Source: Pseudomonadota bacterium
GTDB taxonomy: Bacteria > Pseudomonadota > Alphaproteobacteria > Acetobacterales > Acetobacteraceae
Length of the DNA: 64,000 nucleotides
NCBI GenBank assembly: GCA_018240405.1
Contig: JAFEFW010000615.1
Location: 95,287 to 159,286, forward strand
Direction: 5' to 3'
The notes beneath the pieces were generated by a model. The model saw nothing but the letters and a program-made list of their open reading frames with translations, ran no database searches and was not told the origin of the DNA. Positions within the stretch are counted from its first letter, which is position 1; every line of letters begins with the position of its first letter. The position numbers and the translations under genes are program-made. Shown one piece after another: positions 32,708 through 36,732 of this stretch.

Positions 32708-34801
32708 TTAGTGTGCGCCACCTGCCAGCACGGCCAGCAGCAGCAGGGCCACGATGTTGGTGATCTTGATCATCGGGTTCACCGCGGGGCCGGCGGTGTC
32801 CTTGTAGGGGTCGCCGACGGTGTCGCCGGTCACCGCGGCCTTGTGTGCCTCGGAGCCTTTGCCGCCGTGGTTGCCCTCTTCGATGTACTTCTTCGCGTTA
32901 TCCCATGCGCCGCCACCCGATGTCATCGAGATCGCGACGAACAGGCCGGTCACGATGGTGCCCAAAAGCATCGCGCCCAGGGCCGCAAAGGCTGCCGCCT
33001 TGCCGGCAACGACCGCGATGATCGCCCACAGCACGATCGGGGCGAGGACTGGAAGCAACGATGGCAGGATCATCTCCTTGATCGCAGCTTTGGTCAGCAG
33101 GTCAACCGCCGTGCCGTATTCCGGCTTGGCGGTGCCTTCCATGATGCCCTTGATCTCGCGGAACTGACGGCGGACTTCCACCACCACCGCACCGGCGGCG
33201 CGGCCCACGGCGGTCATACCCATCGCCCCGAACAGGTACGGCAGCAGGCCGCCGATGAACAGGCCAACCACGACGTACGGGTTCTGCAGGGCGAAATCGA
33301 CCTTCAGATTCGGGAAGTAGTAGGTCAGGTCCTGCGTGTAGGCGGCAAACAGCACCAGCGAAGCGAGGCCCGCGGAACCGATCGCATAGCCCTTGGTCAC
33401 CGCCTTGGTGGTGTTGCCAACCGCGTCCAGAGCGTCGGTGGTCACGCGCACCTCTTTCGGCAGGTCCGCCATCTCGGCGATACCGCCGGCGTTGTCGGTG
33501 ACCGGACCATAGGCGTCCAGTGCGACGATCATACCGGCCAGCGACAGCATCGTGGTCGCCGCAACGGCAATGCCGAACAGACCGGCAACCATATAGGTGA
33601 CGATGATACCGACCGAGATGACGATCACCGGCAGCGCGGTGGCTTCCATCGACACCGCCAGACCCTGGATCACGTTGGTGCCGTGGCCGGTGGTCGAGCT
33701 TTGCGCGATCGAGCGTACCGGGCGGTATTCGGTCGCGGTGTAGTACTCGGTGATCACGACGATCAGCCCGGTCACCACCAGGCCGGCCAGCGCGCAGACG
33801 AACAACTGGATGCCGTTCACCGTGCCGCCGCCAATCATCGGCAACGAGCCGAAGCCGGTGCACAGGAAGATCACGATCAGGACGCCGACGATCGACGCAA
33901 GGCCGGTGACGATCAGGCCCCGGTACAGCGCCTTCATGATGCCGTTGTCCGGTCCCAGCTTGACGAAATACGTGCCGCCGATCGAGGTGAGGATGCAGAC
34001 CGCGCAGATACCCAGCGGCAGGATCAGCATCGCGTCACGGGCGGCGCCGGTGAAGAAGATGCCGGCCAGCAGCATGGTGGCGACAATGGTCACCGCATAG
34101 GTCTCGAACAGGTCGGCCGCCATACCGGCGCAGTCGCCGACATTGTCGCCAACGTTGTCGGCGATCACGGCCGGATTGCGGGGGTCATCCTCGGGAATGC
34201 CAGCTTCGACCTTGCCCACCAGGTCCGCGCCGACATCGGCGCCCTTGGTGAAGATGCCGCCGCCAAGACGGGCGAAGATGGAGATCAGCGAACCGCCAAA
34301 GCCGAGTGCGACCATTGCCTCCAGCACCGGGCGGAGATCGTCGGACGGCAGCGCGGAGCGCAGAAAGGCGTAGTAGCCGGCGACACCCAGCAGGCCGAGG
34401 CCGACGACGAGCAGACCAGTGATGGCGCCCGCCTTGAAGGCCACATCCAGGCCGGCCGCCAGACCTTCACGCGAAGCCTGCGCCGTACGCACGTTGGCGC
34501 GCACCGAGACGTTCATGCCGACATAGCCGGCCGCGGCGGACAGCACGGCGCCAATGGCGAAGCCAATGGCCGTGTACTTGCCCAGCGTGAACCACAGCAG
34601 GGCGAAGATCACGATCCCGACGATCGCGATCGTCAGGTACTGGCGGTTAAGATAGGCGCGCGCGCCCTCCTGCACCGCCGCGGCAATCTCCTGCATACGG
34701 GCCGTTCCGGCATCCGCGGCAAGAACTTGCCTGGTTGTTATGACACCATAGGCGAGGGCAGTTAGCCCGCAGACTATGATCAGGATTACGGCTACGCTCA
34801 T
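32708..34801 (-). CDS. hppA: K+-independent H+-translocating pyrophosphatase
   Basis: 697 aa, typical length, with about 16 membrane helices. Pyrophosphate/Mg-binding motifs are visible: [39 protein letters not shown] and near the C-terminus [10 protein letters not shown] with [15 protein letters not shown]. The segment [14 protein letters not shown] carries Lys where K+-dependent enzymes have Ala (GNTTAA), so this is the K+-independent proton-pumping class. It couples pyrophosphate hydrolysis to proton export across the inner membrane. It is followed by a strong terminator. The selenoprotein gene lies 188 bases upstream on the same strand. Confidence 0.96.
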
Positions 34802-34989
34802 CCCGATTCGTTCCCTTCGTTTCGATTGATCGCGGCGGTGCCGAAGATTACCGCGCGAAGCGAGGGGCGTATGCCAGACGCGTGAGCATCAGGCAAATAC
34901 CGGAATTGGGCTTCAGCAAGGCTTTGACACGATTGCCGTCGACACGCGACAGGCGCCGCCGCTGCCCTGGCACAGGATTTGTCCGAAGA

Positions 34990-35214
34990 TCAGGCGCCGC
35001 TGACGGCGCCGGCAATCTCCGTCTCGGTGGGGAAACGCCCGACTGACTTTTTCGAGAAGGTCAGTTTGCCGTCCACCGTGATCTCAAAGACACCACCGCC
35101 GGTCTTGTGCAGGCTGACCTTGGCCGACGGATGCTGCTTCAGGATCAGATCCCGTGCCACACGGGCACGCGGCTCGTAGCCTCACATGCCGCAGTATTCG
35201 ATCTCAATTTGCAT
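34990..35214 (-). CDS. SelW/Rdx-family selenoprotein with in-frame UGA (selenocysteine 11)
   Basis: This gene is split by an in-frame TGA (35182-35184) and is invisible to standard ORF calling. Reading the TGA as selenocysteine (U) gives 74 aa starting MQIEIEYCGMUGYEPRARVA and ending with a normal TGA at 34990-34992. It matches the thioredoxin-like SelW/SelT/SelH (Rdx) family: beta strand, redox motif C8-G-M-U11 then GYEPRA, central GGGVFEITVDGK, and FSKKSVGRFPTETEI near the end. The UGA sits exactly where the second redox Cys or Sec is expected, the frame after it is intact, and a SECIS-like hairpin follows. The role is probably thiol-based redox; partners are unknown. Insertion requires SelA/B/C/D, none of which is in this window. 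The alternative is a Cys-to-stop mutation. Confidence 0.85.
35151..35172 (-). promoter_or_regulatory. bacterial SECIS-like hairpin after the selenocysteine codon
   Basis: Twelve bases after the UGA, CGUGCC (35169-35164) pairs perfectly with GGCACG (35158-35153) around the 5-base loop CGUGU. Two more C-G pairs extend it past a single bulged G (35170). The apical loop contains GU about 20 bases from the UGA, within the range known for bacterial SECIS elements read by SelB. Confidence 0.65.
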
Positions 35215-35307
35215 TCTTCACACGCCTTTTGATCAGGAAATCAGGGCGGAAAAGCTTGGCACCAGGGCAAACGATTTGCAACAACGGCGCATCATCTGGA
35301 ATCTCGA

Positions 35308-36732
35308 ATGCCCACGCCCCTGATCGTTCCCGTCATCCTCTCCGGCGGTTCCGGCACACGCCTGTGGCCGGTCTCACGCGAGAGCTTCCCCAAGCAGCTC
35401 TGGCCCCTCATCTCCGAACGCACCATGCTGCAGGAGACCGCGCTGCGGGGCGCCGGCGCCCGCTTTGCCGCACCCATTGTCGTCTGCAACCAGGAGCACC
35501 GGTTCCTGATCGCCGAACAGCTGCGCGCCGCAGGCATCGAGGGCGCGCGCATTGTGCTGGAGCCGGTCGGCCGCAACAGCGCCCCCGCCATCGCCGCTGC
35601 TGCGGTGGTGGTGGCTGAAACCGACCCGGATGCCGTACTATGGATGATGGCCGCCGACGCTGCCATTGCCGACGTCCCTGCCCTGCACACCGCGCTCGAC
35701 GCTGCCGCCCGGGCTGCCCAGGCCGGCTATGTCGTTACCTTCGGCATGAAGCCAACCTCGCCGGAAACCGGCTACGGCTACATTGAACCTGGCGCGTCAC
35801 TGCCAAATGCCGAAGGTGTCTTTGCGGTGGCCCGCTTTGTCGAGAAGCCGGACGCCGCCACGGCCGAACGCCTGGTGAGTGGCGGGCGTCACTTCTGGAA
35901 CTCCGGCATGTTCGTCTTCACCGCTCGGACCCTGCTGCAGGAGTTGGAGACGCACGCGCCCGACGTGCTGCCGCCCGTGCGCCAGGCCGTGGCGGAGCAG
36001 ACGACGGACCTCGACTTCATCCGCCTCGGCGTCGCCGCGTTCAGCGCCTGTCCGTCGATCAGCATCGACTACGCGGTCGCGGAACGGACCAGCAAGGCCG
36101 CGGTGGTGCCGGCTGACCTCGGCTGGTCCGACGTCGGCAGCTGGAGCGCGTTGTGGGAGCTCGGCGGCAAAGACACGGCCGGCAATGTGTCGCAGGGCGA
36201 TGTGGTGCTGGAGGGTGCGGAGAATTGCTACGTCCGCAGCGATGGCGTGCTGACCGCGGTCGTGGGGCTGAAGGACGCTGTCGTGGTGGTGACCAAGGAC
36301 GCCGTGCTGGCGATGGACCGCGCGCAGGCGCAGGACGTGAAGAAGGTGGTGGAGCACCTGAAGGCGCACGGGCGGTCCGAGGCCGTGGCGCACAACCGCA
36401 TGTACCGGCCCTGGGGGTTCTATGAGAGCCTGACACAAGGTGACCGGTTCCAGGTCAAGCGGATCGTGGTGACGCCCGGTCGGCAATTGTCATTGCAGAG
36501 CCATTTTCACCGCGCCGAGCACTGGGTCGTGGTGAATGGCACCGCGCGGGTCACGCGCGACCAGGAGACGTTGATCCTGCGCGAGAACGAGAGCGTCTAT
36601 CTGCCATTGGGCTGCGTGCACCGGCTGGAGAACCCCGGCCGCATCCCATTGACCCTGATTGAGGTGCAGGTTGGTGCGTATCTGGGCGAAGACGACATCG
36701 TCCGGATCGAAGATACGTACGGACGCATTTAG
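35308..36732 (+). CDS. manC: mannose-1-phosphate guanylyltransferase / mannose-6-phosphate isomerase
   Basis: 474 aa, the usual length of bifunctional type II enzymes (ManC/AlgA/XanB). The nucleotidyltransferase half starts VPVILSGGSGTRLWPVSRESFPKQLWPL, with GRNSAPAIAAAA, PETGYGYIEPG, VEKPDAATAERLV and WNSGMFVF. The C-terminal cupin domain (about 365-474) has RPWGFYESL, GRQLSLQSHFHRAEHWVVVNG and a metal-binding His pattern. It makes GDP-mannose from mannose-1-phosphate, and probably mannose-6-phosphate from fructose-6-phosphate, for surface polysaccharides. It is divergent from the selenoprotein gene. Confidence 0.93.
   Translation: MPTPLIVPVILSGGSGTRLWPVSRESFPKQLWPLISERTMLQETALRGAGARFAAPIVVCNQEHRFLIAEQLRAAGIEGARIVLEPVGRNSAPAIAAAAVVVAETDPDAVLWMMAADAAIADVPALHTALDAAARAAQAGYVVTFGMKPTSPETGYGYIEPGASLPNAEGVFAVARFVEKPDAATAERLVSGGRHFWNSGMFVFTARTLLQELETHAPDVLPPVRQAVAEQTTDLDFIRLGVAAFSACPSISIDYAVAERTSKAAVVPADLGWSDVGSWSALWELGGKDTAGNVSQGDVVLEGAENCYVRSDGVLTAVVGLKDAVVVVTKDAVLAMDRAQAQDVKKVVEHLKAHGRSEAVAHNRMYRPWGFYESLTQGDRFQVKRIVVTPGRQLSLQSHFHRAEHWVVVNGTARVTRDQETLILRENESVYLPLGCVHRLENPGRIPLTLIEVQVGAYLGEDDIVRIEDTYGRI

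Follow-up and report, generated by a model that had tools for sequence, protein, structure and literature searches.

On the minus strand of the window, which is the whole 64,000-nucleotide stretch of DNA analysed here, lies a small gene of the SelW-like/Rdx type (selW) that is broken by standard ORF calling. Its frame of 74 codons contains a UGA at codon 11 and closes with a TGA stop at codon 75, and the encoded protein reads MQIEIEYCGMU GYEPRARVARDLILKQHPSAKVSLHKTGGGVFEITVDGKLTFSKKSVGRFPTETEIAGAVSGA up to that stop. This frame, with its C8-G-M-U11 motif and normal terminus, had been described in the first-pass annotation, and translation confirms it. The gene and the features around it are collected in Table 1.

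Table 1. Features of the selW locus, in positions of the window
Feature	Position	Strand	Basis or remark
Predicted SelW-like/Rdx selenoprotein gene	34990..35214	-	74 codons and TGA stop; Pfam Rdx, TIGR02174, open frame
In-frame TGA, codon 11, most likely read as selenocysteine (C8-G-M-U11)	35182..35184	-	TGA/Cys alignment of homologues
Candidate ribosome-binding site AAGG, 10 nt upstream of ATG	35225..35228	-	direct sequence reading
Bacterial SECIS-like hairpin, 6-bp stem CGUGCC/GGCACG, 12-nt spacer from UGA	35153..35169	-	
Apical loop CGUGU, +19 to +23 after UGA	35159..35163	-	GU at +20/+21
manC-like divergent neighbour (mannose-1-phosphate guanylyltransferase-like)	35308..36732	+	name by sequence reading
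hppA-like downstream neighbour (proton pyrophosphatase-like)	32708..34801	-	name by sequence reading

When the UGA is treated as a residue, the protein matches Pfam Rdx at 67.4 bits (cut-off 22.6) and passes TIGR02174 CXXU_selWTH at 61 bits (cut-off 34.2), in agreement with the SelW/Rdx membership proposed earlier. It scores narrowly below the cut-off of NF041051 SelTWH_Campy, an equivalog model named (seleno)protein (84.3 bits against 88). Among proteins of known structure, the Rdx entries 2ljk, 2fa8, 2obk, 2npb and three others are distant sequence relatives (E-values from 8.8e-10 to 3.5e-4), the best match extending over residues 2-72 and thus over most of the query. The similarity at the protein level together with the open frame is far beyond chance, and the gene is the sole Rdx match in its genome (7.37 Mb, 681 contigs). 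A 117-bit six-frame match of the window was set aside as circular because the profile used includes the window protein itself.

SelW-like proteins are a bacterial selenoprotein family known since at least 2005, of which the window gene is a new example. The Sargasso Sea survey found SelW-like CxxU selenoproteins to be its most abundant family (PMC1088965). They were also among the most abundant in the GOS data, with 427 sequences (PMC2398784), and are included in a 2006 survey of bacterial genomes, in which few Cys homologues occur in Sec-using organisms (PMC1794560). The window gene shares with these described members the CxxU motif and a hairpin directly 3' of the UGA whose small apical loop contains a G (PMC1088965, PMC2398784, PMC1794560), as well as Cys homologues at the same site that are few in Sec users, a pattern also seen in the window's genus (PMC1794560). 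It differs from them in its motif, C-G-M-U-G-Y-E, and part of its lineage has lost the loop G. A literature search whose coverage excluded most subscription journals returned no selenoprotein report for the Acetobacteraceae/Rhodopila lineage.

Relatives were collected by a Pfam Rdx search of 60 genomes, the window's own included, which gave 25 matches (22 with one TGA, three without a stop), and by a one-genome-per-species scan, which gave 83 confirmed relatives, 80 of them kept as loci. The nearest named loci belong to Acetobacteraceae, Rhodopila and Acidisphaera, and the SelW of one congener (G030) is identical to that of Rhodopila globiformis (L017) over residues 1-67. The source of the window is thus probably related to Rhodopila. 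The codon-11 site is TGA in 89 and TGC or TGT in 14 of 103 readable sites, which come from two partly overlapping sources and include 77 distinct TGA sequences. In a 29-row alignment, column 11 is always Cys or Sec. This upholds the earlier placement of the UGA at the second redox position of the family.

The sequence beyond the UGA is under constraint. The 77 distinct TGA sequences were divided by the two bases 3' of the UGA into class I (GG, 40 rows), to which the window belongs, and class II (37 rows, L050 assigned by hand), whose members come from other Alphaproteobacteria, Desulfobulbaceae, SAR324 and others. Throughout class I the frame 3' of the UGA is open, with stops in none of the 40 distinct sequences, whereas the other two frames carry stops in 37/40 and 34/40. 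For this part, the 753 of 780 pairs that gave a usable value have a median dN/dS of 0.26, and 90% of them lie below 0.5. An in-frame GTG at codon 19 offers another start, at which an automatic gene caller could begin, and translation from it would yield a truncated protein of 56 residues without the redox motif. This reading is very improbable: the N-terminal part is conserved, with I5, Y7 and C8 invariant across the 29 rows, and among the 40 distinct class I relatives, the window included, just six have GTG as codon 19.

The first-pass annotation had left the selenocysteine machinery to be sought in the rest of the genome, and it is present there. Profile searches located selA at C583:51355-52683 (552 bits), selB on C521 (407.8 bits) and selD on C189 (287 bits, inside a 709-residue frame). 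A tRNA-Sec of 73.1 bits lies at C583:51242-51333, only 21 nt from the selA match, and ARAGORN, run on the stretch around selA, independently predicts a tRNA-SeC with the anticodon tca (UCA). A second RF01852 match in this genome (47.4 bits, barely above the cut-off) was rejected, as ARAGORN identifies it as tRNA-Ser. The selD product of this genome (G000; locus L132) has an extra N-terminal part, and frames of about 700-780 residues are found in many congeners too. A single in-frame TGA also interrupts the formate dehydrogenase alpha gene of this genome (motif ARIUHSSS), so that at least two selenoprotein genes are predicted in it, selW and formate dehydrogenase.

A hairpin with a GU-bearing loop, said earlier to start 12 bases after the UGA, is indeed present, and the small apical loop directly 3' of the UGA contains the G that is a SECIS feature. 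Taken alone, however, this hairpin is weak evidence. When the region was recoded synonymously 5000 times with local codon usage, 30-36% of the recodings were equally good by three stability measures, and the exact anatomy (6 pairs, 5-nt loop, GU) recurred in 3%. Since the hairpin is not significant against synonymous recoding, it was rejected as stand-alone proof. The upper hairpin of the E. coli SECIS begins 11-12 nt after the UGA, and its apical loop includes G23 and U24 (PMC8659212). The window hairpin resembles it in its 12-nt spacer and in its loop GU, which occupies positions 23/24 when the U of UGA is counted as 1. Unlike in E. coli, U17 is absent, the position being G in 40/40 class I relatives, and no Rfam family matches positions 34900-35300. 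The formate dehydrogenase hairpin of the same genome has the loop AGUCU, with the GU in the same register as in selW.

Comparison among relatives adds evidence that the single hairpin does not give. In class I, 27 of 31 relatives encode the loop arginine (R18) by CGT, a codon used at 16 of 100 other Arg positions nearby (Fisher 6e-13, an optimistic value because the rows are related and not independent), and the +19 register pairs best of 18 tried, with 5.2 of 6 pairs. The pairs of the class I stem do not covary more than column make-up predicts (z 1.0, a value equalled or bettered by 70 of 300 permutations), and for the contiguous stem z is -1.6. GU at +20/+21 is missing from 13 of the 40 UGA-keeping class I relatives and the G at +20 from nine. 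The class II hairpin mostly lies one codon later, with GU at +23/+24 in 31/37, and loops of the CGUGC/CGUGU type stand in this later register in, for example, L042, L044-L049, L051, L054 and L055. Its loop Arg is CGT in 21/25 against 10/70 (Fisher 5e-10, likewise optimistic for related rows), and it covaries strongly (z 9.3, 0/300 permutations as good); the next-best of 18 registers, +15, reaches z 4.6, also with 0/300.

These data bear on the alternative that suppression or decoding as tryptophan accounts for the UGA, with no dedicated RNA element involved. The unexceptional stability of the window hairpin and the nine class I relatives lacking the loop G are what this alternative would expect, but it is hardly credible in a genome with the full Sec set and a tRNA-Sec with the UCA anticodon. 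It is further opposed by the alignment of Sec with Cys at codon 11 across the family and by the strong covariation of the class II hairpin, and it does not explain why CGT is the favoured codon for the loop Arg.

Within the genus, selW is present in 20 of 34 genomes, and every copy has one in-frame TGA. The earlier question of what close relatives carry is answered in two parts: no congeneric copy with Cys at this site was found, the Cys-bearing Rdx genes observed all lying outside the genus, whereas disrupted frames do occur, in congeners without the gene. All 20 holders have selA or selB above the cut-off, and the four genomes with neither (G006, G008, G024 and G025, G024 being 68% complete) are without selW (0/4; Fisher p 0.022 for co-occurrence, with relatedness ignored). 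Ten Sec-competent congeners lack selW. In four of them, G005, G013, G018 and G020 (L137, L146, L150, L152), selA and SelB are present, yet selW is absent and no formate dehydrogenase exceeds the TIGR01553 cut-off; a search for UGA genes in ten selA/selB stretches gave nothing convincing.

The match between gene and machinery has a few gaps. selA was not found in two of the 20 holders, G004 and G027, both of which have selB; the completeness of G027, an assembly of 920 contigs, is rated at 100%. A tRNA-Sec of at least 68 bits was detected in 19 of the 22 genus genomes searched, and no strong one in G004, G006 and G008, where the best score (47-48 bits) is at the level of the tRNA-Ser match. In G004, which is 89% complete, an assembly gap is likely, because the missing selA and tRNA-Sec adjoin in relatives and because selB and a UGA-containing formate dehydrogenase are kept. 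Outside the family, G046 (77% complete) has a UGA-bearing selW without convincing selA, selB or tRNA-Sec.

The neighbourhood of selW provides a record of its absence as well as of its presence. A manC-like gene is adjacent and divergent in 37 of the 89 TGA-bearing loci and hppA lies downstream in five; in the genus, manC stands beside selW in 16 of the 20 holders, joined by hppA in the window's genome (G000), G002 and G026. manC is also present in 13 of the 14 congeners without selW. In six of the 14 loci examined next (G005, G006, G008, G013, G021, G025), manC and hppA are neighbours that diverge from a spacer of 253-401 nt. These six spacers were searched with a DNA profile built from 17 genus-level copies of selW, and 100 dinucleotide shuffles of each served as the control. 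Eroded selW copies were recovered from G005 (18.7 bits, E 3.5e-5) and G008 (9.8 bits, E 0.017), and weaker remnants from G006 (6.0 bits, E 0.26) and G025 (3.1 bits, E 2); in each of these four spacers (L179, L182, L184, L185) none of the 100 shuffles scored as well. The G013 spacer has no match to the profile, and that of G021 is not significant (-2.8 bits, 4/100 shuffles as good). The remnants of G006, G008 and G025 align with one another and have a missing part in common.

The disrupted frames raised for close relatives do exist and, for the most part, coincide with absence of the machinery. Three of the four genomes whose relics outscore all shuffles (G006, G008, G025) are without selA or selB above the cut-off, and G006 and G008 are also without a strong tRNA-Sec. 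G005, by contrast, keeps selA, selB and tRNA-Sec, so that selW can also disappear from a genome that retains the Sec trait. These patterns suggest that selW, which in the genus lies beside manC in most holders and between manC and hppA in a few, the window included, has been lost repeatedly, in one lineage along with the Sec machinery, with eroded copies left in place. Such eroded copies in the corresponding position might suggest that the window gene, too, is a pseudogene, formerly an Rdx gene of the Cys type in which a nonsense mutation hit codon 11, or that its TGA is a sequencing error. Either reading is refuted by the conserved TGA (89/103 homologous sites, 77 distinct, and all 20 congeneric holders) and the conserved frame behind it, where purifying selection continues, and by the failure to find any congeneric copy with Cys at codon 11.

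The analysis shows directly the protein similarity, the UGA at the second redox position of the family, the constraint on the sequence beyond it and the full set of Sec genes. Judged from these sequence data, the locus is with a probability of about 96% a functional gene for a small SelW-like selenoprotein of the Rdx family, and its in-frame stop codon is most likely read as selenocysteine, as the first-pass annotation had proposed; the machinery in the same genome and the uniform TGA of the congeneric copies support that proposal. During translation, SelB with Sec-tRNA-Sec would bind the hairpin 3' of the UGA at its GU-bearing loop. Selenocysteine would then be inserted at the UGA in place of termination, and the resulting C8-x-x-U11 motif would form a thiol/selenol redox centre.

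The genus also varies in SelB. A tree of 33 SelB rows, from which five short rows were omitted (G019, G021, G031, G035 and the second copy of G027), contains three main groups in the genus, A, B and C. Copies of groups B and C occur together in G007 (L138/L139), G009 (L140/L141), G011 (L143/L144), G016 (L148/L149) and G033 (L164/L165), and G022 combines groups A and C (L153/L154). G004 has a C-group SelB running off its contig and a B-like SelB that joins G049. Among the genomes with two divergent SelB paralogues, a single strong tRNA-Sec was detected in each of G007, G009, G011 and G016, and none in G004. No report on two SelBs in one genome was found in a search that left most subscription journals outside its coverage, and a term search of a paper on alphaproteobacterial SelB (PMC8124441) gave no match.

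Among genus genomes whose SelB is known, loops lacking GU are confined to group A (G010, G012, G023, G026, G030). The window's genome has a group-A SelB and a GU loop, and the group-C genomes that hold selW have a GU loop. Where the UGA is kept with a non-GU loop, as in G010, G012, G023 and G026, positions +19 to +23 read AUCGC or AUUGC. In the selW copies of L100, L102, L103, L105 and L106 the UGA is kept and G23/U24 are gone, and the RNA can instead fold into a hairpin around GCGA. It is conceivable, although unlikely, that one half of the genus, including G010, G012, G023 and G026, has switched its SelB-RNA recognition code, with the window's genome representing the older state. A ManC tree (29 of 34 loci usable), in which the deepest split is weakly supported, divides these genomes in roughly the same way; the association between SelB group and loop type is therefore a lead only and does not establish co-evolution.

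A single genus thus contains working selW genes, eroded copies at the same site, divergent SelB paralogues and, in part of the lineage, loss of the loop bases. This mixture of selW states and SelB paralogues makes loss of the Sec trait and change in SelB/RNA recognition testable among close relatives.
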